DNA of 64,000 nucleotides, from NCBI GenBank assembly GCA_023105745.1, contig JALGQZ010000018.1:22404132-22468131 (forward strand), written 5' to 3'. The DNA is from Austropuccinia psidii (Eukaryota > Basidiomycota > Pucciniomycetes > Pucciniales > Sphaerophragmiaceae). A model generated the notes under the pieces. The model was not told where the DNA came from and made no database searches. It saw only the letters and a list, made by a program, of their open reading frames with translations. The position numbers and the translations under genes are program-made. Positions within the stretch are counted from its first letter, which is position 1. Each line of letters starts with the position of its first letter. Below, in pieces: positions 7,884-63,596 of the stretch.

Positions 7884-8575
7884 GCTGCCCACTGGAGTTG
7901 TGTTTGGCACTTATTTGGGTGGTGCAGGGTTGTTTTACCTCCATTCCTCTGTCAAAAGTATTATGTTTTTCTTTTCTATCAATGGGCACCATCCATTAAA
8001 TAACTTGTAAATATTTTTCTGGCCCAGAAAATTTCTCATCATCAGGTAAGATTTCATGCCCTTTTTCCAAATTTTGTCTAGGATCTGATACTCTTTGTGT
8101 TTAAGTTAATTGTTGTATACATTCTGTCTGGAATCTTAAATGTTTACTGGGGCTTCTTATGGAGGTGTAAGCTCTGTTTGAAGACAAGACAGTGTTATCA
8201 GCTTCAGAATAGCATGATGTTTCAGTTTGGGCTTTATTTACTGACCCTTGTCCTTTTGTAACTGATTTGCTTTGGCTATAATCACATCTAAAATCTTTTT
8301 AGGAGCTTCTTGAGGGGTTATAGATGGCTCCTGAGCTGGTTGGGGGTATAATTATAAGTCAAAAAGCTCAAAAATATTAATGGTATGGGAAAAACTTACT
8401 ATTGGTCAAATAATTTGCTTTTTGGAAGCATCATTAATATAAAAATTGATTAATTAAGAAAAAATTGTTTCTGTTTTTTATTCTGAGTTATAATAACTGT
8501 AATATTATAGTTGGAAGTGACAGTACTGGCTGGAATGATGCTAGTTACTGTTGCAGCTGCCTCAATGCTTTCTTC
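7884..8575 (-). pseudogene. Element A ORF1 remnant with intron relic
   Basis: This is the 5' part of the small ORF1 gene seen in better condition in B, C and D. On the minus strand an upstream exon ends at 8400. It is followed by a GTAAGT donor at 8399-8394 and an acceptor CCAG ending at 8336, a 64-nt intron. Fourteen nucleotides before the acceptor is ATA (8349-8347), exactly where element B has the ATG of its polyprotein. Downstream, the reading resembles B's ORF1 (P-Q-E-A-P and later segments) but is broken by frameshifts and by the solo LTR. The function of ORF1 is unknown. Confidence 0.55.
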
Positions 8576-8801
8576 TGTTACAATGTTATTGGATGCTACA
8601 ATTGATTAATGAAAACATTATTTAAGTAAAAAGGGGTATTTTTCAGAAGAAAAATGAAAAAATACAGCCTCACTTATGATATTCAAAAAGAAATATTTTC
8701 CTGGATTTTTGAAATTAAAAAGCTTTATGGATTTCTAATTTCCTTAATATTGGCATTTTTCATAAAAAAAGGCAAAAAATTATGTCACAGGTCAAACATC
8801 A

Positions 8802-14898: not shown

Positions 14899-14903
14899 TT
14901 AGC

Positions 14904-17330: not shown

Positions 17331-17425
17331 GTGTATATATGATACTATGTACCATTATGAACCATTTTTACTCAGAAATTCAATGGTGACATTTTCAGGA
17401 CTCCATTATGCCATTCCAAATCAAG

Positions 17426-28339: not shown

Positions 28340-30527
28340 TGTGAGCCTGTGAGGTATGTATAACATACCCATAAGGCCAAAAATGATTTTATAAACAGTT
28401 AAATTTGTCTTAAACAGACTTTTTAGTTGAAATTAAAATAAAAAATAACAAAAAATAAGTATAACTTTTTTTTGGAAAAACAAAGTTATAATGATTATGT
28501 CATTTTTGGATTCTACACCAAAAATGACCTAGGGTACATCCATAAGGTGTTATACCCAAAAACACTTATTTCTTGTGTTATTAGAAGATTTAAGAATCTC
28601 ACAGTACTAATGTAGCTTTTTTAACATCTTTTTAAAATAGTTGAATTTAAGCTTAAATAAGCTTAAATTTAAAGTTGCATAAGGTTAATGCAAACTTACC
28701 AAAATTTTAGTTAAAATTGAGGTGTGGTGTATATTTACTGAATTGGCTAAGGATTTTCCATACAGAATGTAAATCCTGTGTGAGCTCAATTTAAAAGGGT
28801 TTAAAGCCATGGTATGGCTTTAAATAAATAAAAGGGAAAAATCCACGCAGAAAGGTGGGACAAAGGAAAAAGACCAAATAGAGCTGGGGTACCCAACTTT
28901 TTGGATCTGCAATGATTGAATTAAGGTTCTCCACCTGTATTGGAGGACTTTCAACCTTATTTAAACTTTAAGATTAGACTTTGATCCAACCTTAAGGTTT
29001 AAACTGGTTTTATCCCAATTTGGACAGGAATTTCAAGCTGCCAAAGGGTAAATCCCAATATGCAGGCTTGAAATCAAGGTTTTAAGAACAGTCAAAGCTT
29101 ACTCAAACTCAAAAACCTTAAATAAGCATAAAAATTTAAATTTACAAGTATCAAAACCTTATCAAAAGCTAAGGTTTGGTGTGTATTGCTATTTTACGTG
29201 GAAAAATAGCAATAACTTCAGAAATTCATTAAAAATCCAAATCTTAATGGATTTGCTTGAAAGTTTTACACAGCTTACAATTTAATATTATCTACATATA
29301 AATTAAATTTTAAGTATCTTTTATAAATAAATCTCCTGGGTAATTAGCCTGGAAATTTACTCTTTTAATTAAGCTCAAAGATAATTATGATTTCTTTAAA
29401 AATTAATTAAAAATTGAGTTCAAGAGATTCCTGCTGAAACTCTATTTTTAAGTTGTTCATGTGATCAACTTTAATATAAATAAATTTATTTATATTGAAA
29501 ACTTAAAATAATTAGTTTAAATGCGGATTAAAGTTACATGGAGTTAAGAATAACACTGGTAACTTTAAATTGGAATTAAAAACAAGTTGCCTTAAGCTAA
29601 GAACTTTGTTTTTAAGTATGATTTTTCAGTTTTGACCTGAGCACGCCCTCTATATTCATTATTAATCATGAGAGCTGCTCTGAAGACATAAAGAGAGTCT
29701 TTTCATCACTGTTTTTGTCCATCATTCATTATCAATCCAATCATATTAGAAATTTAAACAGGTAAAGTTTTATTATTTATAAAAACTTATTATTAAAGTA
29801 ATTCTTGAATTATTTTATTCTTTATTAATTGTAAATTAAAGAATTGAAATCATAGAATTCAGATTATTGTTTTAATCATCAATAATAGATTTTATATTGT
29901 AAAATTATCATCTTAAATATCTTTTAAAGTCCACAAATTCCTCTTAAAAACTCTTTAATCTTGAATTTTATTATAAAAAGTTGTTTTATCTTTAAGATTA
30001 TTGATTTTAGGTGTGTTTTCAACTTATAATAATTATTTGATACAATAACTGTTGTTGTTTGACTTTTTGTATTAAATAAATATTATAAGTAAGTTTTTCT
30101 CTAAAGTTCTATATTTTTTATCTAGTATTAGTTTTTTTATATAGAATTCTTTATTCTATAAGAATTATTTCTGCACAGTGTGTGTTATAATTCTTTTATA
30201 AATAATATTTATATTATTTATAAGTGGTTAATATTCATATTTCCACGTGTAATTGTCTCATTAAGAGCTTTACACTTCTTATTGTTATAACTGTCAGTGA
30301 CTATAACAATAATAGAATAATTATCATTTATTATAGCTATTATATTCTTGTTATTATTATATTTTTATAATAATAATTAAAGTTCTTTTTTTTATATAAT
30401 TATTTTTAATAATTATATTTAAATTTGTGGTTATAATATTCTGTTATATTATATATTTCTACTGAGGACAGTCATAGTACTCTTGATTCTGCTACTATTA
30501 TCAAGAGTTTCATAGACAAACCTTACA
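28340..30527 (+). repeat. 5' LTR of element C (2188 bp)
   Basis: It starts TGTGAGCCTGTGAGG and ends AACCTTACA. The start is fixed by the CTTTC target duplication, and the full length matches 37148-39310. A perfect 7-bp stem, GGTATGT/ACATACC (28353-28369), lies 13 bp from the end. Confidence 0.93.
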
Positions 30528-30529
30528 TT

Positions 30530-30543
30530 TGGGGGCCTGGCCA
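30530..30543 (+). promoter_or_regulatory. Primer-binding site of element C
   Basis: Two bases after the 5' LTR comes TGGGGGCCTGGCCA. It begins with TGG, as expected for pairing with a tRNA CCA end, and resembles the sites of B and D. I could not identify the tRNA. Confidence 0.7.
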
Positions 30544-30545
30544 TT

Positions 30546-31076
30546 ATTTTAAACCAATTTTTGGGACATAAATTGTATTCTAGACCTTATTTTACTGTTT
30601 TTTGACGTAAAATTGCCATATTTATCTTAATATTGGCTTTTTTGGGAGTTATCCCTTATAAATAATCTTTAAAATATTAATAAGGTTATTTTTTCTTAAG
30701 AATATTGTTTGAAACAATATACTATTGAGTGACTTGGAATAAATTTATTTTGTCTAACTAGTGGCTTTTTCACATCACAGACTTGAAACTTATTCTTTGA
30801 GTTATTCTATCATAAAGTGAATAATAATACAATTTTGATTAATTAACTTGTTAATTGCATAATTATTATTTCTTTAAAGAAAATAATAAATCAAATAAAA
30901 AAATTGAAAAATTAAAAATCTTTACTAAAAACATTTTTCTTTTATCTTAGACATTTCTTCTTTATTTTTGACGTAATTTGCCATAAAATTACATTAAAAC
31001 AACTTTATTTAATAAGTTGAGTTTATAAGTTATTTTTATTAGTTGATAAAATAACTTATATTTTTAATTTTATCTA
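30546..31076 (+). other. Element C leader with repeated TTGACGTAA motif
   Basis: This is an untranslated leader between the primer-binding site and ORF1. The motif TTTTTGACGTAA followed by TTTGCCATA occurs near 30597 and again near 30966. A third TTGACGTAA is at about 31234 in the first ORF1 intron. The leader ends in TATCTAG at 31071-31077, a possible 3' splice site, with ORF1 continuing as TG TCT at 31078. Donor candidates exist (for example GTGAAT after ATAAA near 30819) but cannot be chosen. Confidence 0.5.
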
Positions 31077-32024
31077 GTGTCTTCCATCAGAGAAAATTCT
31101 TCAAACTCTGAAGCCTCAGAGTCCAGTATTGAAATTCAAACCAGCCCACCACCAAGGGGTTTGATAACCAAAGAGCCCTTTAAAGGTCCTGCAGGTGAAT
31201 TCAATTCAATTTTACTCTATTTTTTTATTAAAATTGACGTAAAATAACTCCTACTAGAAGTGGAAGTAACTACTCCATCCAATCAAATGGATCTGGACCA
31301 GGACATTCCAGCCACAAATCCAAAAGGCAAGAATGTCTTCCCAGAGGAGAGGCACAAATGGAGGATGCCAGAACTTCCACCAGTTCCCAAAGGTTAGCCA
31401 GCACCTTTGAACCTCTTATTGAGAGTCCAGAAGCTGACATAACTGCTATTGCTGTTAGACCTGAACCATTTCCAACAGGCAGCTGTGGAAATTTATCAAT
31501 CTCAATGGAGGAACTGGTTCTTGGCGTCAAAACAACAAGGGTGGGAACTTCTCCCAAGTCTTTGGATAGGCACCATGAACTCTAATCTTCAAGTGAAGAA
31601 GTTCATGGGACCAGAAAAGACAGAAGATCTTCTGATGCGTTGGACACCCATGTCTGTCAAAGGACAAGTCCAACAGATAAAAGCTTGGTTGAAAAACCAA
31701 AGCATGTTATCAGAGGATCAGAAGAAGAAGTTGGCCCAAGGCAAGGAAGCCAGCCCAGTGGAAGCTCCCCAAGCATCCACCAGCAAAAATCCGCCTCAAC
31801 AAGGGCCAAACAAGCCCAAGCAAGCCCCAAAAACCAACCAGAAGGGCAAGCAAAAGGCAAAGGGAAAGGCAAAGCCCAAGTGGAACAAGACTTACCCTCA
31901 GAATTACAGAATCTCAAAGAAGGAAAAGACAGCCATGGACAATGTGTTCAATATGGCAAAAACCTTGATGGAATTCAAAAACAAGGAGGAGGAAAGATTG
32001 AACCGATCTTTCCCAAAGAAATAG
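31077..32024 (+). CDS. Element C ORF1, spliced accessory protein (about 272 aa)
   Basis: This small protein precedes and overlaps Gag-Pol; its function is unknown. Predicted exons are 31078-31194, 31258-31392 and 31459-32024. Intron 1 (GTGAAT...CTACTAG, 63 nt) and intron 2 (GTTAGC...TGTTAG, 66 nt, with a CTGAC branch-like sequence) are described separately. Intron 2 removes the only two in-frame stops (31395 and 31440) and keeps frame. The spliced frame is then open to TAG at 32024. It begins with TG after AG, so the A of the start codon would come from an upstream exon. The middle is Lys/Gln/Pro-rich and strongly basic, suggesting nucleic-acid binding. The C-terminus (TAMDNVFNMAKTLMEFKNKE) matches the end of B's ORF1. 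From about 31258 onward the DNA is also read as Gag-Pol in another frame. No known domain is recognised. Confidence 0.55.
31195..31257 (+). other. Element C ORF1 intron 1 containing the decayed Gag-Pol start
   Basis: This 63-nt intron has donor GTGAAT and acceptor CTACTAG, with TTGAC about 20 nt before the acceptor. ATA at 31244-31246, 14 nt before the exon, opens the Gag-Pol frame; in B the same position is ATG. The upstream stop of the polyprotein frame is TGA at 31235. Confidence 0.55.
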
Positions 32025-37011: not shown

Positions 37012-37138
37012 AAAGTTTGAATTGTGTGCTTTGCATACTTGAAAGTATAAGTAGAGAGGTTGGACAGTGGATAATAACCCCCCCAAATAACTTGGGGGTA
37101 CACTACAAAAGAAAGATTGTGGTACAATTTTTTTTGGT

Positions 37139-37147
37139 AGTAGGGAA
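37139..37147 (+). promoter_or_regulatory. Polypurine tract of element C
   Basis: The sequence GTAGGGAA-like (GTAGTAGGGAA) directly precedes the 3' LTR start at 37148. It is short but correctly placed. Confidence 0.6.
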
Positions 37148-39310
37148 TGGGACCCTGTGAGGTATGTATAACATACCCATAAGGCCACAAATGATTTTAT
37201 AAACAGTTAAATTTGTCTTAAACAGACTTTTTAGTTGAAATTAAAATAAAAGATAACAAAAAATAAGTATAACTTTTTTTTGGAAAAACAAAGTTATAAA
37301 TATTATGTCATTTTTGGATTCTACACCAAAAATGACCTAGGGTACATCCATAAGGTGTTATACCCAAAAACACTTATTTCTTGTGTTATTAGAAGATTTA
37401 AGAATCTCACAGTACTAATGTAACTTTTTTAAATTTTTTTTAAAATTGTTAAATTTAAGCTTAAATAAGCTTAAATTTAAAGTTGCATAAGGTTAATGCA
37501 AACTTACCAAAATTTTAGTTAAAATTGAGGTGTGGTGTATATTTACTGAATTGGCTAAGGATTTGGCATACAGAATGTAAATCCTGCGTGAGCTCAATTT
37601 AAAAGGGTTAAAGCCATGGTATGGCTTTAAATAAATAAAAGGGCAAAATCCACGCAAAAAGGTGGGACAAAGGAAAAAGACCAAATAGAGCTGGGGTACC
37701 CAACTTTTTGGATCTGCAATGATTCAATTAAGGTTTTCCACCTGTATTGGAGGCTTTTCAACCTTATTTAAACTTTAAGATTAGACTTTGATCCAACCTT
37801 AAGGTTTAAACTGGTTTTATCCCAATTTGGACAGGAATTTCAAGCTGCCAGAGGGTAAATCCCAATATGCAGGCTTGAAATCAAGGTTTTAAGAACTGTC
37901 AAAGCTTAATCAAGCTTAAAAACCTTAAGTAAGCTTAAACCCTTAAAGTTACAAGCATCAAAACCTTATCAAAAGCTAAGGTTTGGTGTGTATTGCTATT
38001 TTACGTGGAAAAATAGCAATAACTTCAAAAATTCATTAAAAATCCAAATCTTAATGGATTTGCTTGAAATTTTCACACAGATTACAATTCAATATTATCT
38101 ACATATAAATTAAATTTTAAGTATCTTTTATAAATAAATTTCCTGGATAATTAGCCTGGAAATTTACTCTTTTAATTAAGCTCAAAGATAATTATGATTT
38201 CTTTAAAAATTAATTAAAAATTAAGTTCAAGAGATTTCTGCTTGAAACTCTATTTTTAAGTTGTTCATGTGATTAACTTTAATATAAATAAATTTCTTTA
38301 TATTGAAAACTTAAAATAATTAGTTTAAATGAGGATTAAAGTTACATGGAGTTAAGAATAACACTGGTAACTTTCAATTGGAATTAAAACCAAGTTGCCT
38401 TAAGGTAAGAACTTTGTTTTTAAGTATGGTTTTTCAGTTTTGACCTGAGCACGCCCTCTATATTCATTATTAATCATGAGAGCTGCTCTGAAGACATAAA
38501 GAGAGTCTTTTCATCACTGTTTTTGTCCATCATTCATTATCAATCCAATCATATTAGAAATTTAAACAGGTAAGGTTTTATTATTTATAAAAACTTATTA
38601 TGAAAGTAATTCTTAAATTATTTTATTCTTTATTAATTTTAAATTAAAGAATTGAAATCATAGAATTCAGATTATTGTTGTAATCATCAATAATAGATTT
38701 TATATTGTAAAATTATCATCTTAAATATCTTTTAAAATCCACAAATTCCTCTTAAAAACTCTTTAATCTTGAATTTTATTATAAAAAGTTGTTTTATCTT
38801 TAAAACTATTGATTTTAGGTGTGTTTTCAACTTATAATAATTATTTGATATAATAACTGTTGTTGTTTGACTTGTTGTATTAAATAAATATTATAAGTAA
38901 GTTTTTCTTTAAAGTTCTATATTTTTTATCTAGTATTAGTTTTTTTATATAGAATTTTTTATTCTACAAGAATTATTTCTGCACAGTGTGTGTTATAATT
39001 CTTTTATGAATAATAATATTCATATTTCCACGTGTAATTGTCTCATTAAGAGCTTTACACTTGTTATTGTTATAACTGTCAGTGACTATAACAATAATAG
39101 AATAATTATAATTTATTATAATTATTATATTTTATTATTATTATTATGTTTTTATAATAATAAATAATTTTTTTTTTCATAATTATTTTTAATAATTATA
39201 TTTAAATTTGTGGTTATAATATTTTGTTATATTATATATTTATACTGAGGACAGTCATAGTACTCTTGATTCTGCTACTATTATCAAGAGTTTCATAGAC
39301 AAACCTTACA
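37148..39310 (+). repeat. 3' LTR of element C (2163 bp)
   Basis: It matches the 5' LTR along its whole length and ends AACCTTACA at 39310. Its first bases read TGGGACCCTG where the 5' copy has TGTGAGCCTG, so the terminus carries three substitutions. Confidence 0.93.
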
Positions 39311-40080
39311 CTTTCCTTTGCCCTTGTTCTGGGCTTGTTGTTGCTTTTTCATGTTGAATTGCTGCTGCTGGCCACTGGGCTGTTTTTGGCACTTGTTTGG
39401 GTGGTGGAGGGTTGTTTTTCCTCCATTCTGCTGTTAAGAGCATCATGTTCTTCTTTTCAATCAATGGATGCAATCCATTGAGTAACTTGAAAGTCTTGGG
39501 ATGGACCAGGAATTTTCTCACAGTCAGGTAAGAATTCATGCAGTTTTTCCACAGATCTGCAATGATCTGGTACTCTTTGTGCTGCAATGCATTGTTTTAG
39601 GACTTCTGGCTGGCTTTGTATATGTCCACTGAGGCTTCTTGTGGCAGTGTCAGCTCTGTTTGAAGGTAAAACAGTCTTATCAGCTTCAGAATGACACAAT
39701 TCATTATTTGGAGGGCATCAACTGACCCTTTTCCTTCTGTAACTGATTGGCTTCTGCCATAATCACCTCTATGACCTTTCTGGGAGCTTCTTGAGGGGTT
39801 ATAGCTGGCTCCTGATCTGGTTGAACGCATATTTTATGATTAAAAACCTTTAAAATAGTAATTTTATTTCAAAAAACTTACTATTGGCTGAATTCTTAGC
39901 TTTCTGAAGAGTATTACTCATATCCAATTTAATAAATTCAGAAGAAATTGATTCAGGTTTATTATTCTGAGCTATAATAACTGTATTATTATGGTCAGAA
40001 TTCAAAGTACTTGCAGGAATAATGCTTGTTACTGTTGAGGCTATATCAATATTTTCTTGTCTTACCACCTTTTCAGACAC
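39311..40080 (-). pseudogene. Element B ORF1 (5' part; 3' part at 28213-28334)
   Basis: This is the small accessory gene of element B on the minus strand, cut by element C. Exon 1 runs from TG at 40079 (after AG) to 39882; a 65-nt intron (39881-39817) follows; exon 2 starts at 39816. Recognisable pieces include PAITPQEAP just after the intron, KLIRLFYLQTELTLPQ (about 39680) and KNCMNSYLTVRKFL (about 39530). After C, the end of the gene lies at 28334-28213, with DAMENVFQMSRTMMELQKK, matching C's ORF1 end. The stop TGA (28215-28213) overlaps the ATG at 28216 in the polyprotein frame. Indels near 39710 and 39375 swap the ORF1 and polyprotein frames, so this copy is broken. Both frames stay largely open (39699-39457 and 39587-39311), showing the overlap. 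Confidence 0.65.
39817..39881 (-). other. Element B ORF1 intron carrying the Gag-Pol start codon
   Basis: This 65-nt intron has a consensus GTAAGT donor and acceptor ACCAG. ATG at 39830-39828, 14 nt before the exon, opens the frame MRSTRSGASYNPS, the N-terminus of the polyprotein. Spliced RNA joins AAT across the junction in the ORF1 frame. Confidence 0.6.
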
Positions 40081-40286
40081 TAAAATTAATGAAAAAGCCA
40101 GTTAATTAAGTAAAAAAAAGTGTATTTCAAAAGAGAAATAAAAATATAAGTCTCACTTATAATATGAAAAAATTATTCTTTTATGGATTTTTGGAATTAT
40201 GAGTATTTTTATATGTTTTTTAAATTTTTTAATATAAGAAAAAGGATTAAAGAAGAGTAAAAAAATATGTCATGGGTAAAATATCA

Positions 40287-43807: not shown

Positions 43808-45642
43808 TGTAAGATGTGACTATGAAACTGATGATAATATTACTACTAATCAACAGTACTATGTCTGTTCTTATGAAATATAATTATAAAAAAAATTGTT
43901 ATAACCACAATTAAATAATTATAGAATTATTTCTTTCACGTGTTATACACTACTAGTGATTATAACAGTGAGCAGTAATTGTCTACTAGAATCAATTGCA
44001 AGAAGAATTTAATAATAAAAACTTCTTTATTAAAATAATAAAATTATTTTAATATATAATTATCTTTTACAAGAATAATTATAAATATAATTCTTGAAGA
44101 AAACTATTACTAGAGAGAAACTTTAAGAATTAAAAATAAATGACTCACTAATACTCCGAAGAGCTTATTGATAGATAAGAGTAGAGAAATTTGACGTGGA
44201 ATTGTGGATTTAAGGGATCAAAAGGATTTATAACAGTATTACAACAAAATATAGTTGGATTCTATGATTTCACGTCTTTCTGGATGATTTTGAAAGATTT
44301 AAAACACTTAAGAATAGCTTTAACTAATACTTACTTGTTGGTAATAATGATTTGATAAATTGATAAGATGATGATTATGAAAAAGCAGCAAGAAGAGGCT
44401 TCTTTTAAGTCAACAACAGCTCACAGAGGCGTGCCATGGAGCAAACTGAAAAACCAGTGAGTGAGAAAACAATAAACCCTTTTTAATTAATGATTGCATC
44501 ATCTGTTGTCACGTAAGATTATCATAATTACTTAATTGATGCTTTTACGTGACTACCAACCCCAATATGGTTAAGAATAAAAGGAGTAACATCTGTAAAT
44601 CTTCTTTTATTCTAAAATAATCATTGATTTCTCAAAGTTATCAATGTTATTGCCAATTTCATCAAAGGTTGTAATTACTGTGAATTTTTGAAGATTCAGT
44701 GTTTCACATAGAATGGTCAAAAATAAAACTTTGAATTTTACAAGTAAAACCATAATTCTTTTTGGTTGTACCATAGATAATACAGTTCTTCATTGGTCCT
44801 GAAAGTTTCAGAAGGATTCATTAAGAATTGTATTTTTAATGAATTTTTGAAGTTTTTACCTCATTTCTACGTAGAATTGCAAATAGCAGTATTTTTCTGG
44901 TTGCTATGAGGTAAATCAATGAATATAGATCCCAAAAGGGTTTAATTACTCTTTTAGGGTCTAGCCATGGAAAGTCATCAAGAATTGACGTGGTTACAGG
45001 AGTCTAAGTAGCTTATTACCTCCTTGGCACGTCAAAATAGCAGGTTATTTGCTATTTTTCTTATGATTACAGTAGGTGTAACTTGGTAACCAAGTTCCCA
45101 AAGAGTTTTAGTTTACCAATTGGGCCAAGATGAGCCATGGATCCATGCTCTGGAGCTATCCACACCTCTGAGGCCTCAGAAGTTGGGTACCCTGGCTCTC
45201 TTTGTACCAAAAGTCCATGTAAGAATACCATGATATTAAGTGCTCAAAACATGCATAACACTATTCTTAGTGTATATGTAACATGGGATTTCTCAATTTC
45301 CCATTATTTTGGCTAAAAATAAAGAAAAACAAAAATTTTCACAGATCTTTTATGTGGTATTAATGATGTGGTATTTAAGTATTTTCCATTTTACCACCTC
45401 AAATACTTAAATTGAGCTTATTCACTCTATGGAGCTACCCTAGGTGAATTTTTGTGTAGAATCCAAATCTGGTCTTAAATCCATGGATTTACTTACTCAA
45501 TAAAAAGTTATTCATCTTTTCTGAAATTGAAAATGATGAATTTTGGATATATGCATGACTTATGAGTTTTGCATAATTCAAAATTTCTTTTTAAGATAAT
45601 TGTGGCCTATTTGGGTATGTAAAATATACCTCAAGGCTCACA
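43808..45642 (-). repeat. Solo LTR (1835 bp)
   Basis: On the minus strand it starts TGTGAGCCTTGAGG at 45642 and ends ATCTTACA at 43808, with the duplication GTACA at 43803-43807 and 45643-45647. It is closest to the solo LTR at 5958-7878. Confidence 0.92.
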
Positions 45643-48225: not shown

Positions 48226-48230
48226 CAAAC

Positions 48231-49643
48231 TGTCAGGCTGAGTCTATGATAAATTGATTAGAAATGTATTTAAAGTGTTGAATTTGACTGTGACGCAGAG
48301 AATATTTCTAAAAAATAGTTTAATAATTATTTTCAGGGATTTACTATTGTGGAATAGTCATGGTAAGTGCTGTTGAAATCCCTGGGTTCAGATTTATCCA
48401 TTTAATGATTCTAATAAATACTGAAATAGCTATTATTTTGGGCATGCCTAATTTTTTTTGAATAGTATAGCTGTTGGTAAGCAATTTTACTATGCATGAA
48501 TTCAAGAGCAGCATGGGCATTCCTCTTTTGGGAGGAGAAAGGTCCCTTTTTATCCTGAAAATGTGTGAAAAGGTCTTCTAGACCATTTCACATAGAGGAA
48601 GTGCAGAGTTTTCACTTCCAAGGACTAGATTCTGATTTTCACAAGGCCTGTATAACCTGTATTGGGCTAAGATGTTGTTTTGAAAGCATATATAGGAGGT
48701 TTTCACCAACACAGGGTGAAAATATCCCTTTGGGGACCACACAGCCCTTGTCTGACATGTAGGACACATAGAATGCTGTAAGGAAGCTGTATGGGACCCC
48801 AGTATTGAGAAAACTATGAGTTATTTAATGATAAACAGGCTACTTTGTCTAATTGAAAACTCATATTCAAAGATATGGGAAGTATGCCACAGTAAAGGTG
48901 TAACTGCCTAACTGTGGGATTTTAACTTTAAAAATGCTATAAAATGGTCAGTTTCAAGATATTGATCTCAAATTTGGTTAATTGTGTAGCCCTGGATGGT
49001 ATTTACACAATGTTACCTCATTTTGTATGGGTATCATTAAGTATGGCAAGGACATACCATGTTCAATTCCCATTATCAAAATATGAATTTTTGTCAAATC
49101 CTGTATGGAACCTATTTTCTGTATAATTTTGGTTCTAGAAAGGGTATGGGAAGATGTATGGAACCATCATGTATCCCTTAGTGTGCTCTTTCCAAACTGA
49201 CCACACTTGAGGTTCCTCACACTAAAACTGTAGAAGCTAGATGAGAGTTGAATATTTTGAACACACTTATTTGGCTTTAAGCTGGAAATAACCTCTGTAG
49301 TTTTGATGCTAGCTCAATTTGGCTAGTACCATTGGATAGCCCTTGCTGAGAGCTTAAATTGGAACACTCATTTCATGTGGTTCAGCCTCTTACTCTGGAT
49401 TTTAGATGCAAGGTGAGAATACAGGTTTATGATGAGAAATGCTTTGAGCCTGAATAACTTTGTTATGTTTTTCCTATTATTATAGGAAATGTATATTTAA
49501 AAAGAGGTTACTTTCCTCTTTCTCTTGATACACTTTGATCTCATTTTTCTCAGCTCCATGCTTTGGTGGTATGTTACTGTAACACTGGTTAATATTATTT
49601 TGGCAGTCGTGCTTGTGCTCTAGTTTTGAGTAACAGGCTGACT
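48231..49643 (-). repeat. 3' LTR of element E
   Basis: It starts TGTCAGGCTGAG on the plus strand and ends CAGGCTGACT, where the final A is mutated. It has the same block order as the LTRs at 13462 and 53402 and is much more diverged from D than D's two LTRs are from each other. Confidence 0.85.
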
Positions 49644-49659
49644 TAACCTCCCTCCAGAA

Positions 49660-53396: not shown

Positions 53397-53401
53397 AAAA
53401 A

Positions 53402-54874
53402 TGTCAGGGTGAGTCTATATAGTAGCTATAAAATGTAGTTACAAGCTAGTATTATGACTGTGACACGTCAAAAACAAATAAATTCAAATCTTCAGGTCCT
53501 ACTGCTACGTGGTAACAGTGGTGATGGGTCTGTTGAGGACCTGGGTTGCAATACTCTAATATCTTTGACTGTAAAGAAGTACTACAATAATTATATTCTA
53601 ATTATATCTTTAATGATAATTCTAAGGACACTACTGATTGATAACAGTTTTGTCACATAAGAATATGGATAATAAGATAAAGATGATGGGTTTTCATGGA
53701 AAAAACCCTTCTTTTTATATCTTTCAGGACTGTCAAGAGTTATTAACTCTTCACACGTCAGAGGAGTGAAAAGTTTCACTCCAATGGTCAGTCTGTGGTT
53801 CTGGATCATCAATTCTGACATCAATAGAGGCAGAATTGTGGTTTTGGAACCACAAATGATCATTCTGGATCAATACAGGGTGAAAAAACTTTTCACCTGC
53901 CATGTCAGCACTTGGATGACGTTGTTCTGGTGTCTGTATGATCAATGATGATGATTTTAGAGAGGGTATATCTTCATAAGTATATTATTTTAAGTATGAG
54001 AGCAATACTGTTTGATACAAGTTTGATACAGTCATGTATTGCTAGAAAAACCTTCTAATCAAGATATCTCAGTCAGTTCTTACGATATCAAGAAACCAAG
54101 AGCACAGAATTGAAGGGATTATTGAGCTCTTCAATTTGATATGCTTCATGTTTACCCTTCTTTAAAATAGCAAAAGTTATAAGGGTTTTAAGTTTTTGAA
54201 TGTATTTTTGTACATCGGTATGAGGCTTCAAAAACTTCCATACCAGATATCTTCTTCAATTTGGAAGATATTTGTATTCTGATGATACAGTCTTGTAGGG
54301 CTTGATTAGCTCTACAGTTTGGTATACTACACTGTACAGTTGTATGAGTGTATGCCAAGGATACAGGGGTTTGTTTACATTGTTGTTTTCAGAATATCTG
54401 TATTTTGGTTGTTAAACCTTTGAACCAAGATCCCCCAGTCAATTTAAGAGATACAGAGGTCTAAGGTGTCTCAAATTAAATCTCTTGTTTAGATCTTTAA
54501 TTTGGTTATGCTTTTGTAAAGTTGTGTACAAGCCCTCTTTGACTTTCAGGGGGGTCTTGGTTTTAAAATAAAGGTCATATGGTATCTCCAGTTGTAGTGG
54601 TGTTACAGCAACATGGATGATACCATTGTGTAGCTCTCTATGTGAACTTTAAGAAAAATACCATTTTGGTATAGGATAACTTAAATATGCATCATTTAGA
54701 TGAGAGATGAAAATAAGGGTTTTGACTTGTTTATAAGGTTGGTGTTTAATTTAAGAGGAGTTTTCTCCTCTTATTTATTACCTGTATTGCCTATGTTTGT
54801 TCAATACTTGTCATACCATTATTTATGGTATGTTGGATGTCATGCTAGTGCTCTGTTTGAGTCACAGGCTGACA
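53402..54874 (-). repeat. 3' LTR of element D (1473 bp)
   Basis: It matches 62089-63596. It holds paired stems TTGTGGTT/AACCACAA (53836-53855) and GGTGAAAA/TTTTCACC (53879-53897). Several CpG sites present in the other LTR are TpG or CpA here. Confidence 0.93.
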
Positions 54875-54898: not shown

Positions 54899-57800
54899 TC
54901 ATTGATGCGACTCTTCAGCCCTTCTGGAGGCTCTGAATCTTTTGAGGTGTATTTGTCCATCTGGGATTTCTTTCTCAGTTAACCATTTATCTTTATCTGC
55001 TGGTTGATTCTTAAATCTAACCAGATATTGCCTGTTGTCTTTACCGTTAATTCTTATTTTCCTGGCTTTAATGATCTTTTTCACTGGTCCAGGTGAGTCA
55101 TCTTCCTCTACCAATCCTTCATGGGTGACTGTCTTCTTTCTGTCAGGGAATTTCTCCTCATCTGTTTGGTGATAAGGTTTGACCAGGCTCACAGGGAAAA
55201 CTGGGTGTTTCCTAGAAAACTCTTTGGTCAGGTTGACTTCTACTGCATTCTTTCCTATTAATTTAATAATGGTGAATGGTCCTATGAATGAGTCTCTCAT
55301 CTTCTTGGGTCCTCTTAGATTGTTGAAGTTAAGATTTGAGATTAGAGCTTGGTCTCCTTCTTTGAAATCAGGTTCTTGGTGACTTTTATCATATCTCTGT
55401 TTGTTGTATAATTTAGCTTCAGCCACACATTGTTCTGCTTTTTCACAGGCAGTTTTCCACATTGTGTGGAGGTCTTTAGCTGTGGGGTGTACTGAGAGGA
55501 GGTTCTTCTTCAAGTAGTCTACTGGAAGTAGTGGGTTCGATCCTTTCTCTGATGTGGCAGGGGTTTTTCCTGTCACTGAGTGTATACTTGTGTTGTATGC
55601 CAATTGTACAGCTGGTAGGAGGGTTACCCAGGTATGGATATATCCCTCATTGTCTTTATATTCCATGCCATATTCACAAAATCTTCTAATGATGTCTTCT
55701 AATGTTTGAATCATTCTTTCTGCTAGACCATCTGTTTGTGGATGGTAAGCTGTGGAGAATGCTAGTTTGGTTCCCAGCATCTCATATAGATTAGTCCAAA
55801 ATTATGATGTGAATTTAGGGTCTCTATCACTAATTATAATTCTTGGAACTCCACAGTTTGCTATCACATTGTTCCAGAACAATATGGCTGTGTCCATTGC
55901 TGTGTCCTCTTTGTGACAGGGGAGACAACTGACACTCTTGCTGTACCTGTCTACTACTACTAGGTCTGCATTAAAGCTGTCTTTCCCTCCAGGGACCAGG
56001 CCTGTCACCCAATCCATGTTTATTATTTCCCAGGGGTGTTTGGGCTCCTCTATACTCTGGAGTAATCCATATCTTTTTCCATGACCTTTTTTGGCTTTTT
56101 GGCATCTGGTAAAAGTGTTGATGTATTCACTCAAGTCTTGTTCCCACTTTGGCCACCAAGCTGTGCTAAAGACTCTTTCTTTAGTTCTTTCTTCACTCAT
56201 ATTTCCCATATATGGGCAGTCATGGTATTCCTGTAGTATCAGGGAAATATGTTCTCTAATTATTATTACCAGGGAACTTGTGTGTTTTTCCTTATGGTAT
56301 AGTAGATCATCTATCAGAAAAAATCTATTCTCTTTGAAGTTTTTGGGCCATGGCTCTTCCAATTGGCTCTCTAGTTCAGGACTCCTGTACTTTTGTCTTA
56401 ATAGTTGTATCAATATACTACACTGTTTGTGCTTATTGTATGATGATTGTACTATACTAAAGAACTCTATATTTAGATTAGAGGAGCTGATTCCTGATAT
56501 GGGTATCTCTTTGCTCTCCCCATAGCTCTGTGCTGGGTTTGATGGGTCATTCCCTAATGCCCAGTTTTATAATTTGAAGTTCTTTCTCCTATCTATCTCC
56601 ATGTATTGTATGGGTATTTTGGCCCCATTTTCTGGGTCATATGCTGGATTCTCTTGGTCATTCTTCAGTGGCCACCTGCTGAGACCATCTGCATTAGTAC
56701 GAATTTTCCCTTCTTTATAGATAATAGTCATATTCCCTCTGTATTCTTGTATGGCTATTTGCCACCTGAGCATGTGTCTGTTTGTTGTCTTCATGTTCAA
56801 CAGTGATTTGAGGCCTGTGCAATCAGTAAAAACTTCAAATACTGCTCCTTCTAAGTAGTAATGGAGTTTTTCTAATGCCCATACCAAACAGAGACATTCT
56901 GTCTGAGTAGCTCCATATCTGGCTTCTGAGTCTTGCAGTTGTCTTGATATATAGCAAATTACTCCTTCTTTGGGTATTCCATCCACTAGTTGCCTCTGGT
57001 GTAGTTCTGCTCCTAGTCCTTGGCTACATGCTGCATCTATATATAGTTTGAATGGTAGTTCAAAATCAGGAATCATTAGGACAGGGGCATTGGTCAGTTC
57101 ATATTTGATCTTCTCAAATGCATCTCTTCTTTCTTTGGTAATTTCAAAGGCTACATCTTTTGAGCACAGTTTGTATAGGCTACTTGTGATGTGTGCAAAG
57201 TTTTTTATGTGGCTCCTGTAGTAACTAGCAAAGCCCAAAAAAGATTGCATTTCTTTAATGTTCTTTGGTACTGGTTTCTTCAGTACTGCAGCAACTTTAT
57301 TTTGGTCTATGGCTAGACTTGAACCTGAAACTTTGTGTCCTAGGGCTAGCAGCTCTTGCTGTCCAAAGTTACATTTTTTAAGAGATATTTTCATGTTGAT
57401 TGGTGTACATTTTCCCAATATTTTATCAATTTTCCTCACATGGTCTTCCCATGTTTCTGAGTATATTATGATATCATCAATGTACACTACCATCCACCCT
57501 TCCATTATTTCATCTTGAAATATGGTATCCATCATCCTCTGAAAATGGGCTGGTGCATTCTTAATGCCAAATGGCATTCTAGTATATTCATATATGCCCA
57601 TATGGCATATATTTCTTAGCAATTTGATGGAATCTGGTTTCCCTCATTCTGGTGGAAGCCTTTCATGCAATCCATTTTTGCAATAAACTTGGCTTTTGCT
57701 AGCTTATCTAGTGCATGTGGTATCCTTGGGATGGGGTACCTATCTGCTTTGGTGTAATTATTCAAAGCCCTGAAGTCCCCACATAGTATGGATTTACCAT

Positions 57801-60744
57801 CATGCCAAGCTATAAGGACTGGTGTGGTGACTTCTACTATCTCATTGTGTCCTATTTTGCTTATGACCCCCATTTCTAGGAGCTCATTGATATGTTTCTC
57901 AATTTCTTTCCTAGTTTCCATTCTGGCTGGGTATGGTGGTCTCCTAAGCATAGGTGGATATGGTCTTTCTACATCCAGATATAATTCTATATCATGTCCT
58001 TTGATTTTTCCTAGTGGTTCATCTCCTATTGCAAAAGCTCCTCTATGCTTCCTCAATACTTTCAGTAAGCTGAGTTTCATTTTACTGGTGAGTTGAGTGC
58101 CATATTGGGCTTCTTTGAATTCTTCCACTAGTTCTTTCAGGGTGTTATCATTTGCTATATGATTTATGTCAAAGGAGAATTTTTTGTCTTTGTTTGTACC
58201 TATGGTAAGATATCTATTTTTACTATTGCAAATGTCCATACCATACATTCTTTGGTACTCTGTACCTAGTAAGAGTCCTTGTACATGTGCATTCTCTAGA
58301 ACTACAAATTCAGGTTCTAGTCTGATATTTCCTTTTTGGTGTGGGATAATTATCTCTTTGATTATTGTCCCCAGTGAGTGCATTTTGCCTGATGCACTTT
58401 TAAAGTTTCTAGCTTTTGTTGTGATTATATCCTCTTCCCATTTGGGGAAGTGTTGTTTTAAGTATCCTTTTGCCACTATGGAGCAACAGTTCTCAATGTA
58501 AACTGTCAATTTTGTAGGTGTTCCATGAATGAATCCCATCCCTCTATTTGGAGTTACCAGGAATGTTTGTGCATTCTGTGTGTGCTTACAGAGCTCTTTG
58601 TCTGTTGTTATTTGTGGTATTCCTGAATCTAATTCAATGTCTTGTATGTCAAGTGAACTTTCTTCATTGCATTCCACTATGTATTCTTCTATGGTATCAG
58701 GTTCACTTTGTGATTCTGCTCTCATAACATTTCCCATACTGTCAGAATCAGATTTGTCACCTGTTTGTTCTTCTTCTGATTCTTCATCAATTGCATATAT
58801 TTTCTTTTTTGGTTTTGTGCAATTGTTGGCATAGTGGTCTGGTGATCCACAGTTGTGGCACACATATTTCTTTTTTGGGTTTTCTTTCCCTTTCTCTTTG
58901 TTTGTTTCTTTAACTTCAGACTTCTTGTCTTTGAAGTTCAGTTTATAGGATGTGTACCTTCCTATGGAGGTTTTTTTCCTCACATCTTGTATGACATTTG
59001 CTATGTCATCAATGCTGCTGATGTTGTTGCATCTGCATTTGACTGCATGTTCTAGATCTCCTGGCAATTTTTTTAGGAGTTTGTGGTTTCTCATTTCTAT
59101 TGTCATATTGGGATCAATAGCTTTTAGCCTTTTTGTTTGTTTGAGACACCATTCATATAGGTCTTTTTCTGTGGAGTATGTATCACTTTCAAAGGACATG
59201 GTCTTTTGCCAGATCCAACTACCATTGCTATACTTTTGTATAATATGGTTCCTCCACCATGGCAAGCTTTTCCTGCCATGTATTTCTTTCATCTCAGTAT
59301 ACCATATGTTTGCATGGCCTCTGAATGCTGTGTTAAGTCTTGTTGTGATCCAGTAGTCTGGTATCTTTGGGACATCAACAAAGAGTCCATCAATATAGTC
59401 AATGATTTCCATATGGTCATATTCCCCAATTCCTGAGAACTTTGGCCAGTTTGCTACTTCTGGTAACTGTTTTAGTGCCTGTTTCTCTGAATAGCTGAGA
59501 TTTTCCCCATCTTGGTACATTGACTCTGATCTTGACTTTGGAATCTGATATTCAGGTTCCTGGTGATAGTCTTTATCCTCTTCTTTCAGTTTTGTAGAGG
59601 TGGTGGGTTGACCTTGTGTTGGAGGGTATTGATTGTCTTCTCTGTCATAGAGGTAATCAGTTTCTTTCTCAAAGCTATCCTGTTGCTGCTGGATACTCCT
59701 CAGATCTCTCCTCACATTTTGTTGTTCTTCTAGAATTGAATTCAACTGTCTGTTAGTTTTTTCAAATTCTGTACAAATTTTGGCCAGATTTGTATTCAAG
59801 TCTTTTATGACTGTTGCTTGGAAAGCATTTTCTTCTTTCAATGTTTCCACTTCTGTCCTCATTTTTTCTGAGGTTTAATGTGTCCAATCCATGAATTGGG
59901 CCAATTTGGTCCATGTGCATTTGTCTTCAAACTCATGAGTGTGGATTGTAGTCTCAGTTATTATTTCTGGATCAATTGAGTCAGAACTATCAAAACTATT
60001 TGTAGGTACAACTATTTTTTGCTTTTGTGTACGTCTTGGACTAAGTCCATCAGCTTTTTCATCAATGGGTCTTCTTCCTTCTTCCTCTAGTTGAAAGAAG
60101 TTTTGTTTCTCCCTTGGGCTCCTTTTCTCCTGTTGGAAACTACCTGGAATGGTTGGGGAGCCTTGGATGAAGTTTCCTTTGGCTTGTAAGGCCTGGAACT
60201 GCTGGATTGTTGTAGGGAAGATGGGACTTCTCCTTCCATTTCTGGGGGTACCTGAATCTGACTGGGCTCTTCCTTGTGCCAAGATCTCTCTATGGCTTGT
60301 ATGGCTGCCTGGTTCTCTTTGATTCTGATTGCTCTTTCTTCTAAGAGTTTGAAATTCTTGTTGGGATTCCAACATTGCATTTCTGTCATAAGTTCCATCC
60401 AAGCCATTTGCTTGAGACAGATCTTCTGAGTTGTTATCCCCACTTCTGCCCATGATGCTGCCATAGTGAACATTTTGTTGTCCATGCTCCATGTGAAGAG
60501 GTCTTTCATGAGTTTGTGTATTAGAAGGACCTGTTCTGCATCTGTCCAATCTCCTGGTTGGACTTCTGGGTTTAATTTGATTTGGAATAAGACCTTGGTT
60601 AGGAGTTCCCTGATGGTAAGTCCTTTGCTTGTCATTTTATCCAGTGATTGGCTGTCTTCTTCCTCTGTGTCTTCTTGGCCAGTGTTCTGGTTGATTTCTT
60701 GGGAATCCAAGATCTCTAATAAGTGGAGGTGTCATGTTAACCAT
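54899..60744 (-). pseudogene. Element D Gag-Pol polyprotein (few lesions, protease site deleted)
   Basis: The frame opens at ATG 60744 (or 60735) inside the ORF1 intron. Order: extension overlapping ORF1 (60744-60087); coiled-coil-like segment (about 59860-59620); capsid (about 59450-59000, WPKFSGIGEYDHME); zinc knuckle CHNCGSPDHYANNC (58860-58819); protease region (about 58500) lacking the D-S/T-G box; RT with intact YIDD (57484-57473); RNase H (LYIDAACSQGLG, about 57050); integrase finger (about 56240-56090) and core with NMDWVTG, SDRDPKF and [10 protein letters not shown]; chromodomain-like tail (QYLVRFK, about 55030). Lesions: TAA at 60639-60637, 59877-59875, 56569-56567 and 55804-55802, and a frameshift just after KGFHQN near 57650. 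All four in-frame stops are TAA. The family makes particles, replicates through cDNA and integrates; this copy cannot do so alone. Confidence 0.92.
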
Positions 60745-61108
60745 GTTAAAAAATGACAGACAATGAAAAATGTTGTATGTTTCAAGGTTTATTTACCTTT
60801 AGCAGGCCCTTGTACAAATTTATGATCTATACTCTTTGGAAATTTGCCTTTAGAGTTTACAACTGGGTTGATAACAGTGATTTTCTGTTTTGCAATTTGT
60901 TTTGGTGATCCAACTGGTTTTGTTGGAGCTTTTCTGGGTTTTTTGGCCCTTGGCACGGCTATTGGTGTCCAATCTTTTGAGTTGATTGTCACTTCACTGT
61001 GTCTTTTCTGCTTGCCCTTGGTTTTTGGCAGCACCTCTCTGTCTTCTGAGGCTGTCACATATGGATTTACTTGTGACTGGGTTTCTAATGGAATATAGTC
61101 TTTTTCCA
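60087..61108 (-). CDS. Element D ORF1, spliced accessory protein (about 313 aa)
   Basis: The predicted product joins 61108-60797 and 60715-60087 across an 81-nt intron; the junction codon is GAG. The frame is then open without any stop for about 313 codons. There is no ATG at the 5' end: the frame begins TG GAA AAA after AG, so the start A would come from an upstream exon. Exon 1 is Lys/Pro-rich (RAKKPRKAPTKPVGSPKQ) and acidic patches follow the junction (EDTEEED). The middle (about residues 125-230) looks helical with Trp and Met, and the C-terminus is basic and Ser-rich (SNRRKGAQGRNK). From 60744 to 60087 the DNA is also read as the polyprotein in another frame. No known domain is recognised. 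Similarity to C's and B's ORF1 is positional more than sequence-based. Confidence 0.55.
60716..60796 (-). other. Element D ORF1 intron carrying Gag-Pol start codons
   Basis: This 81-nt intron has donor GTAAAT and acceptor TTATTAG, with GTTAACATG as a branch-like site. ATGs at 60744 and 60735 are both in the polyprotein frame; the second is 20 nt before the exon. ORF1 reads straight into TAA within the donor region if the intron is retained. Confidence 0.6.
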
Positions 61109-61109
61109 C

Positions 61110-62071
61110 TATTTAGAAAAGATATTTCAAATTGTATATCAGTATTTTATGATAAAACAAAATGTTTTCTTCAATTCTACTGTTATTTTTTGAAATTTTT
61201 AAGTATTCTTATTATAATATGTTTTTTTTATATGTTTTTTATTGAAAAATAGTTTTTCACTTATGTTTTATAAGTGAAAACTGTAATATCCAAGTGTTTT
61301 GTGAATGATTCACTTGGATATTATTATGTTTTTGTATAAACACGTCAAATTTATTAAATTATAATAAATTTTGTTATAAATATTATTACTAATATTTCTT
61401 AATGTGAGTTTTCATGAATCAAAACTTTAATATCCAAGTGTTTTGTGAATGATTCACTGGGATACTATTGTTTTCCTTCTAAAAAAACACGTCAGATTTA
61501 GTAAATTATAAATATTATAACTAATATTTATTTTAACACTTGATTTTTGATTAAAATATCAATTAATTACGAGTTTTCATGTCAATTTGAGTGATGTCTT
61601 GTTTTAAAGGAAATATTTAACTAAAATATTCCTTATAAATAATAAAAAATTATTTTATTATTTAATATTTATTAATTATTTATTAATAAATGTTTCTTTA
61701 TTAATTTTCACTGACTTTGGTGAAAAATAATAGTAAAAAATAAGTAATATACTGTTTGTATATTATTATTTATATTGAAATTTAAATAATACTGTTGTAT
61801 TATTATCAAATTTCCTGAAAATTATTGCAATATAATGAAATAAAGAGTATTTGTACTCTTACTCTCAACAAAAATATTTGTAATATGTATTTTTGGAGAA
61901 AAAAAATTATGTATATAATATATGATGCTATATTATATATATAAAAAAATGATAATAATAGAAAATAAGATAAATTCAAAATTTTACTCACTGTAAGTAA
62001 AATACCTTTTAAATAACTGAATTTTTACGCCTAATTCAGTTCAAAACAGGTCCAATAAGGTTGAAAAACCA
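61110..62071 (-). other. Element D leader with duplicated stem-loop
   Basis: This is a long AT-rich leader between the primer-binding site and ORF1. A 144-bp direct repeat carries a stem-loop: AATATCCAAGTG (61285-61296) and CACTTGGATATT (61311-61322), a perfect 12-bp stem with a 14-nt loop. Copy 2 (61429-61440 and 61455-61466) has the same left arm and loop but two mismatches in the right arm. Each copy is followed by ACACGTCA. The sequence just before ORF1 on the minus strand ends TAAATAG, a possible splice acceptor. A GTGAGT donor lies near 61991. Confidence 0.55.
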
Positions 62072-62085
62072 CGGCCAGGCCGCCA
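62072..62085 (-). promoter_or_regulatory. Primer-binding site of element D
   Basis: TGGCGGCCTGGCCG on the minus strand, three bases inside the 5' LTR end. It resembles C's TGGGGGCCTGGCCA. Confidence 0.7.
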
Positions 62086-62088
62086 AAA

Positions 62089-63596
62089 TGTCAGGGTGAG
62101 TCTATATAGTAGCTATAAAATGTAGTTACAAGCTAGTATTATGACTGTGACACGTCAAAAAACAAATAAATTTAAATCTTCAGGTCCTACTGCTACGTGG
62201 TAACAGTGGTGATGAGTCTGTTGAGGACCTGGGTTGCAATACTCTAATATCTTTGACTTTAAAGAAGTACTACAATAATTATATTCTAATTATATCTTTA
62301 ATGATAATTCTAAGGACACTACTGATTGATAACAGTTTTTTCACGTAAGAATATGGATAATAAGATAAAGATGATGGGTTTTCAAGTAAAAAACCCTTCT
62401 TTTTATATCTTTGAAGACTGTCAAGAGTTATTAACTCTTCACGCGTCAGAGGAATGAAAATTTTCACTCCAATGATCAGTCTGTGGTTCTGGATTGTCAA
62501 TTCTGACGTCAATAGAGGCAGAATTGTGGTTTTGGAACCACAAATGATCATTCTGGATCAATACAGGGTGAAAAAACTTTTCACCTGCCACGTCAGCACT
62601 TGGATGACGTTGTCCTGGTGTCTGTATGATCAATAATGATGATTTTAGAGAGGTTATATCTTCATAAGTATATTATTTTAAGTATGAGAGCAATACTGTT
62701 TGATACAAGTTTGATACAGTCATGTATTGCTAGAAAAACCTTCCAATCCAGATATATCTCAGTCAGTTCTTAAGATATCAAGAAACCAAGAGCACAGAAT
62801 TGAAGGGATTAAAGAGCTCTTCAATTTGGTATGCTTCATGTTTACCCTTCTTTAAAATAGCAAAAGTTATAAGGGTTTTAAGTTTTTGGATGTATTTTTG
62901 TACATCAGTATGAGGCTTCAAAAACTTCCATACCAGATATCTTCTTCAATTTGGAAGATATCTGTATTCTGATGATACAGTCTGGTAGGGCTTGATTAGC
63001 TCTACAGTTTGGTATACTACACTGTACAGTTGTATGAGTGTATGCCAAAGATACAGGGGTTTGTTTACATTGTTGTTTTCAGAATATCTGTATTTTGGTT
63101 GTTAAACCTTTGAACCAAGATCCCTCAGTCGATTTAAGAGATACAGAGGTCTAAGGTGTCTCAAATTAAATCTCTTGTCTAGATCTTTAATTTGGTTATG
63201 CTTTTGTACAGTTTTGTACAAGCCCTCTTTGACTTTCAGGGGGGTCTTGGCTTTAAAATAAAGGTCATATGGTATCTCCAGTTGTAGTGGTGTTACAGCG
63301 ACATGGATGATACCATTGTGTAGCTCTCTATGTGAGCTTTAAGAAAAAAGCAATTTTGGTATAGAATAACTTAAATATGCATAAGTTAGATGAGAGGTTA
63401 AAATAAGGGTTTTGACTTTTTTATTCTCCTGTAGGTTTCCTTATTCTGTTTGGATGAGGTTGGTGTTTAATTTAAGAGGAGTTTTTTCCTCTTATTTATT
63501 ACCTGTATTGACTATGTTTGTTCAATACTTGTCATACCATTATTTATTGTATGTTGGATGTCATGCTAGTGCTCTGTTTTGAGTCACAGGTTGACA
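62089..63596 (-). repeat. 5' LTR of element D (1508 bp)
   Basis: It begins TGTCAGGG (62089) and ends AGGTTGACA (63596). Between 62150 and 62610 it carries six ACGT cores, including a perfect TGACGTCA palindrome near 62504, resembling CRE/bZIP sites. In the other LTR several of these have decayed. Confidence 0.93.

Follow-up and report, generated by a model that had tools for sequence, protein, structure and literature searches.

Four Ty3/Gypsy retrotransposons of the rust fungus Austropuccinia psidii probably express two overlapping genes from a single RNA, with splicing deciding which of the two is read. The elements lie in a 64-kb stretch of the genome (contig JALGQZ010000018.1), referred to here as the window; they carry long terminal repeats (LTRs), were delimited by self-comparison, and are named A, B, C, and D. 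In the arrangement that we consider likely on the basis of sequence, retention of a short first intron (intron 1) gives Gag-Pol, and its removal gives open reading frame 1 (ORF1). The unspliced genomic RNA would begin with an AUG-poor leader, and an AUG near the 3' splice site of the intron, which is 61-81 nucleotides (nt) long, would start Gag-Pol, a single-frame polyprotein of up to 1922 codons. Removal of the intron would take this AUG away, leaving an RNA that encodes ORF1 in another frame of the same stretch. The level of splicing would then set the amount of Gag-Pol relative to ORF1.

Intron 1 occupies 60716..60796 in D (81 nt, GT-AG), 39817..39881 in B (65 nt), and 8336..8399 in A (64 nt), all on the minus strand, and 31195..31257 on the plus strand in C (63 nt). 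A renewed reading of the sequence confirms the coordinates that the original prediction gave for the intron and for the ATG or ATA inside it in A, B, C, and D. It also bears out the claim that the two frames stand in the same relation in all four elements: the intron is phase 1 relative to ORF1, and behind it the Gag-Pol frame lies one nucleotide upstream of the ORF1 frame. The lengths in A and B (64 and 65 nt) are not divisible by 3, so the ORF1 frame is broken in both unless the intron is spliced. The public gene model P0011 splices exon 1 to exon 2 at the corresponding place, as judged by eye; a computed alignment does not line this junction up. The original prediction raised the question of whether GT, AG, and the in-intron ATG are all conserved across genome copies, and they are. 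The C-family set comprises 30 loci (element C of the window among them) out of 40 listed places; GT and AG are each present in 30/30 and ATG in 28/30, and the intron measures 62 nt in 21 copies, 63 nt in 8, and 61 nt in 1. The D-family set comprises 16 copies out of 40 listed places, and GT, AG, and the ATG at 60735 are each present in 16/16.

The conserved start position stands 14 nt (B and the C family) or 20 nt (the D family) before the 3' splice site. It corresponds to 60733..60735 in D and 39828..39830 in B (ATG in both; minus strand), and to 31244..31246 on the plus strand in C, where the window holds ATA; ATA also stands at 8349 in A. Within the C family, the two departures from ATG are element C itself and one copy with ATT. 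A second ATG at 60744 in D had been put forward alongside the one at 60735, and this part did not hold: only 1 of the 16 relatives has ATG there. Upstream of the start, the distance from the end of the last Gag-Pol-frame stop to the acceptor end is 17-23 nt in A, B, and C and 77 nt in D. Of the 30 C copies, 29 have a stop in the Gag-Pol frame three codons before the start position, and in the remaining one such a stop immediately precedes it.

Downstream of the start, the frame is long in a subset of copies. Read from the start position in the 30 C copies, it extends for >559 codons, past the end of the locus, in 9, and closes after 6-446 codons in 21. We followed it further in 12 copies picked for long frames, namely the nine that run past the locus end and three of the longest others: here it is open for 434-1922 codons, with one copy open for all 1922 and five stopping at 1922 or 1920. 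Among public proteins that match the N-terminus of C Gag-Pol, 117 of the best 120 of 385 begin with methionine exactly at this position. Because gene models must open with methionine and only the best-scoring third is listed, the count says that the ATG is present in many copies, and it does not imply that ribosomes use it. ATG conservation and the open frame together suggest that the in-intron AUG serves as the start.

These features bear on the possibility that a -1 ribosomal frameshift out of ORF1, early in exon 2 of the spliced RNA, yields Gag-Pol, in which case the in-intron ATG would be incidental. In each of the four elements, Gag-Pol is indeed in the -1 frame relative to ORF1, and it is open from the start of exon 2. 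Frameshifting would leave unexplained the ATG in 28/30 and 16/16 copies, the C-family stop three codons upstream of it, and the ATG-poor leader described below, and no slippery heptamer was seen at the end of D ORF1 in an inspection by eye, with no systematic scan made. We regard frameshifting as improbable.

Copies that lack the intron offer the sharpest genomic test of splicing: when a retroelement is copied by way of a spliced RNA, the new copy has no intron. A 32-nt pattern spanning the exon-exon junction of C, searched with up to 3 mismatches, has 1 match in the 1.015-Gb genome, and its reversed control has 0; a relaxed 25-nt pattern for the same junction finds the same single place and no other. 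The match (L003, also L046-L047; G000:C3:23920046-23930975) is a full-length relative of C. Its LTRs are 96.7% identical to each other, the target-site duplication AACAC flanks it on both sides, and its leader, gag, and pol are collinear with C at ~93-97%, with only small gaps besides the absent intron. Exact GT-AG excision from each of the 30 intron-bearing copies gives a sequence with 3-8 mismatches to L003 in 103 nt. The exon-end variant of L003 also directly precedes the intron start at five other places in the genome. Beyond the junction, the first ATG of L003 is the ORF1 ATG at +30; the first exon-2 ATG falls at +30, in the ORF1 frame, in 29/30 C copies. The copy still carries candidate introns 0 and 2, which are described below.

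L003 thus seems to be a copy of a spliced RNA without the Gag-Pol start that was reverse transcribed and inserted. An RNA of this kind, having lost the Gag-Pol start, probably moved in trans. The other explanation is a chance deletion in an element whose intron is not spliced. There is a single case, and the ends of exon 1 and of the intron are alike, both with TCCT a few bases before AG; this short common repeat is the reason for considering a repeat-mediated deletion. A cut at the short repeats would, however, leave other letters. Among single deletions of 50-75 nt, GT-AG excision ties for the best fit in all 30 comparisons, and the only deletions that fit equally well are shifted upstream by no more than 4 nt. 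L003 is otherwise collinear and full-length, the phase of ORF1 is consistent in four elements, and the intron lengths in A and B are not multiples of three. A chance deletion is therefore extremely unlikely in our judgment. Intron 1 is very probably real and spliced at least sometimes, and we take this one genomic copy as the mark of an intron spliced in vivo.

The region behind the intron shows the signature of two frames kept open at once. Keeping the ORF1 amino acids fixed, we shuffled synonymous codons 2000 times and counted stops in the Gag-Pol frame of the overlap. Observed stops were fewer than shuffled ones in every element: 3 against 9.0 in A (P 0.0015), 1 against 5.2 in B (P 0.0105), 1 against 11.3 in C, and 1 against 7.7 in D (0 of 2000 shuffles in each of the last two). 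The exon-2 segments used for A, B, and C contain candidate intron 2, and D has none. By the same shuffles, stops in the third frame over the overlap are not depleted. Exon 1, where the test rests on B and D only, shows no clear depletion of Gag-Pol-frame stops (B, 12 against 11.9; D, 4 against 6.5, P 0.13). Depletion in the overlap and not in exon 1 indicates that maintenance of an open Gag-Pol frame begins at the intron and does not extend upstream of it.

ORF1 is the constrained protein of the two, as its codon positions show. Substitutions between A and B over the three ORF1 exons fall at 43/191, 22/192, and 68/192 of first, second, and third positions (chi-square p 6.6e-6). The pattern extends into the part of exon 1 upstream of the first in-frame ATG of B (13/52, 6/52, and 19/52), and the leader read in the same register has no codon pattern (21, 22, and 18 of 66). 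Within the C family, 65% of the Gag-Pol replacements common to at least 15 of 120 listed public proteins (n 17) are ORF1-synonymous; for singleton replacements the share is 28% (n 139; Fisher p 0.004). By region, the ORF1-synonymous excess is found in exon 3 (0.55 vs 0.32 expected), and it is absent in exon 2 (0.32 vs 0.34 expected) and candidate intron 2 (0.47 vs 0.54). When all distinct variants are counted as single events, there is no ORF1-synonymous enrichment (0.31 vs 0.38 expected). ORF1 has no Pfam family above the cut-off, and its AlphaFold2 model is of low confidence, with a mean predicted local distance difference test score of 48.

ORF1 is not Gag: the capsid, the zinc knuckle, and Pol all lie in the Gag-Pol frame. 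This changes one part of the splice switch as it was originally proposed. Splicing (seen through L003), the conserved in-intron ATG, and the long Gag-Pol frame that starts there stand; the proposed ratio control would not be one of Gag to Pol, since with capsid, zinc knuckle, and Pol in one frame the ratio would be that of Gag-Pol to ORF1.

Another possibility is that Gag-Pol starts further downstream, in D at the ATG at 59862, which would make the open frame across ORF1 a by-product. The Gag-Pol frame of element D itself is broken, with stops at about 60639 and at 59877-59875, so that a stop precedes the reading frame beginning at 59862; most of the best 120 of 286 relatives of D Gag begin at downstream methionines. 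On the other side are the strong depletion of stops over the overlap in four elements, with the third frame spared this depletion, and the 117 of the best 120 of 385 C-type models that start in the intron. In addition, 9 of the 12 C copies chosen for long frames have a frame that starts at the in-intron ATG and continues without a stop beyond the Gag motif. A downstream start is accordingly a very doubtful account of the open frame.

The leader of the unspliced RNA would favor the in-intron start. Compared with ATG counts expected from dinucleotide shuffles, the LTR end, leader, and exon 1 of C (29671..31194, plus strand; 1524 nt) contain 0 ATG against 21.2. D has 3 against 22.6 between a TATA-like site and the donor, and B has 2 against 8.2 from the LTR end to the donor region. 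Control regions lie closer to expectation in the C LTR (15 v 17.6), C gag-pol (41 v 41.6), and B U3 (20 v 25.9). If the 5' end of the RNA lies in the LTR and translation proceeds by scanning, a ribosome on the unspliced RNA of C or D would meet the Gag-Pol AUG early. Also in the leader of C, a TTGACGT-like motif recurs near 30605, 30970, and 31233, and similar letters occur in the D leader, as seen by eye. The motif is present once within intron 1, ~24 nt before the acceptor, and possibly represents a branch-point-like element there.

Several observations weigh against a start controlled by retention of intron 1. The leader of A is not ATG-poor (7 against 7.6, leader alone), and the control U3 of D is ATG-poor too (14 v 22.6). 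The number of ATGs in the 1450 nt before the donor varies across the 30 C copies: only 5 have 0, 24 have 1-6, and 1 has 17. Elements A and C of the window have ATA rather than ATG at the start position, and the early stops in 21 of 30 C copies interrupt the frame, as expected of decaying copies. Because the copies are related by descent and were chosen by similarity, the counts of 28/30 and 16/16 are not independent events. Between A and B, the N-terminal extension of Gag-Pol has no amino-acid constraint of its own, its third codon position changing least. The intron-less copy is single against 3231 candidate places for the C region, and the junction pattern for intron 1 of D has no match in the genome; scarcity of such copies would be expected if the packaged RNA is the unspliced one.

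The remaining point on that side is that in two public gene models, P0015 and P0254, exon 1 is spliced into the Gag-Pol frame through other acceptors, downstream of that of intron 1. Alternative 3' splice sites might toggle exon 1 between the ORF1 and Gag-Pol frames, with the ORF1 start shared by both products. In A and B, another AG follows the acceptor of intron 1 at a distance of 5 nt (8335-8330 and 39816-39811), and its use would place exon 1 in the Gag-Pol frame. C is without a frame-changing AG directly behind the first, P0015 and P0254 are predicted models, and the conserved in-intron ATG would be left unexplained. Toggling by acceptor choice thus has a small probability in our estimation, and retention of intron 1 remains our preferred origin of Gag-Pol.

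The start of ORF1 may be under splicing control as well, a point that goes beyond the original prediction, as do the further candidate introns of ORF1. Exon 1 (60797..61108 in D and 39882..40079 in B, minus strand; 31078..31194 in C, plus strand) is open in D, and it is without an in-frame ATG in elements C and D of the window, in 30/30 C copies, and in 14/16 D copies; in B, it has none up to 39921. AG directly precedes exon 1, followed in phase by TG, in B, C, and D, and in the same three elements a GT preceded by A stands 62-77 nt upstream of exon 1. The interval between them is a candidate intron 0, at 61109..61180 in D (72 nt, minus strand; exon 0 would end in A), 40080..40156 in B (77 nt, minus strand), and 31016..31077 in C (62 nt, plus strand). 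A has a candidate at 8596..8673 (78 nt, minus strand), with an acceptor followed by CA and not TG. Of 30 mapped C copies, a set that leaves out L003, 25 have the full arrangement A|GT..AG|TG; in the D copies, AG|TG is present in 16/16 and A|GT in 15/16. Splicing of this candidate intron would create an ORF1 AUG (A|UG) that is not present in the unspliced RNA.

Opposite control of the two starts by splicing, with the Gag-Pol AUG present only in unspliced RNA and the ORF1 AUG (A|UG) only in spliced RNA, is in our view an evenly balanced proposition. If true, and with the AUG-poor leader, it would amount to a two-state switch that operates without frameshifting, leaky scanning, or internal ribosome entry. 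Against a spliced intron 0, the intron-less L003 keeps it, and junction patterns for intron 0 of C and of D find no copy in the genome that lacks the interval. The public gene models P0014 and P0011 begin in exon 1, as they would if ORF1 started at an ordinary ATG; we discarded this reading, since the ~400 nt upstream of the donor contain no ATG whatsoever in 13 of 16 D copies.

In A, B, and C, the overlap contains a candidate intron 2 whose removal would connect the two ORF1 parts, both of them open in C. It lies at 31393..31458 in C (66 nt, plus strand), 39656..39726 in B, and 8174..8245 in A (both minus strand). In C it holds both early stops of the ORF1 frame while the Gag-Pol frame is open, and it would also be read as Gag-Pol coding sequence. 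The interval was found in C with an expression that requires its end letters, which fits 26 of 31 copies and leaves five unmatched; its junction pattern finds no copy without the interval in the genome. In D, exon 2 of ORF1 (60014..60715, minus strand) overlaps the Gag-Pol frame with one internal stop in each frame.

Splicing that removes the start of gag is familiar from retroviruses. In orthoretroviruses with a 5' splice site before the gag AUG, the unspliced RNA gives Gag-Pol, and the spliced RNA, from which the gag start has been cut out, encodes another protein. The elements described here are alike in that the gag start leaves with the intron and the spliced RNA encodes a different protein. 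They differ in scale and arrangement: the orthoretroviral intron holds the whole of gag-pol, with the spliced gene at the 3' end, whereas the intron here has 61-81 nt and little beyond the start codon, and ORF1 overlaps the N-terminus of Gag-Pol in another frame. The design had been described as unknown among Ty3/Gypsy elements. This remains so for the tiny overlapping layout, which is new to us, while the logic of the switch resembles that of retroviruses and is shared in part by Cer1 and rice tungro bacilliform virus.

Cer1 of C. elegans is presumably a member of the Ty3/Gypsy class. Its accessory protein CERV is made from a spliced mRNA, Gag and Pol are made from the unspliced genomic RNA, and CERV is required for the export of unspliced RNA (PMC10309623). 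It is an attractive idea that ORF1 might likewise export unspliced RNA. CERV has five exons, of which exons 1-3 are in the gag frame (PMC10309623); ORF1, in contrast, is in another frame, and its splicing removes the Gag start. BARE1, a Copia element, has a facultative intron of 104 nt (PMC3735527), and EVD of Arabidopsis produces an alternatively spliced shGAG RNA (PMC8892269). In both, as here, an alternatively spliced intron in or near gag decides which protein is made. Their splicing leads to a Gag-only RNA; here the intron holds the start of the Gag frame, and splicing removes it. Rice tungro bacilliform virus expresses P4 from spliced pregenomic RNA (PMC5902531), a similar case of a reverse-transcribing element in which part of the RNA is spliced for one extra protein. 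There, an upstream reading frame in the leader is fused to a distal one, whereas ORF1 is at the 5' end. Ogre elements of plants are Ty3/Gypsy elements with extra reading frames of unknown function and a putative intron (PMC6431247, PMC9289625). Their intron lies between Gag and Pol, which in the present elements share a single frame of up to 1922 codons.

We did not find the layout described in the titles and abstract openings of the literature searched, which is mostly that outside subscription journals. It is absent from the available passages of two papers on rusts (PMC8063080, PMC12210899), and the second contains no word beginning with intron, splic, or gag. RNA-seq data exist for A. psidii (PMC8063080).

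If the proposed switch is true, it would be an unusually compact route to two proteins from one RNA, in which an intron of 60-80 nt picks between overlapping frames, and it would give a concrete function to an intron that the genomic RNA must keep. ORF1 would be an overlooked, conserved second protein of elements whose candidate places in a fungal genome of gigabase size number in the thousands: 3231 for the C region, at a first look, and 2241 for D in 1.015 Gb.

The assignment of these elements to Ty3/Gypsy draws on paired LTRs and domain order. B (21205-42111, minus strand) has its 5' LTR near 42111-40303 and its 3' LTR at 22997-21205, and C (28340-39313, plus strand), which is nested in B, has LTRs at 28340-30530 and 37148-39313 that are 95% alike. 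The LTRs of D (minus strand) lie at 62085..63596 (5') and 53398-54874 (3') and are 94% identical. A, on the minus strand, is cut by the window start, with its 3' LTR outside the window. The order CCHC Gag, reverse transcriptase, RNase H, and integrase emerges from Pfam matches in D together with the relative P0072. The open part of the D Gag-Pol frame (57616..59862, minus strand) carries Gag, the CCHC knuckle, and the start of reverse transcriptase: zf-CCHC is above the cut-off, and an RVT_1 fragment is below it. P0072 has RVT_1, RNase H, and H2C2 above the cut-off, in order, and rve below it (E 0.0011). The Gag piece of D has no match in viral_contigs.

Other repeats surround and interrupt the four elements. 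A is interrupted at 5861-7878 by a ~2-kb piece related to 43808-45642. The insertions in A and B lie ~50 nt apart in homologous ORF1 sequence, which may reflect a target preference. Three related repeats of ~1.3 kb, at 13587-14905, 17423-18750, and 48228-49649, are 74-77% alike.

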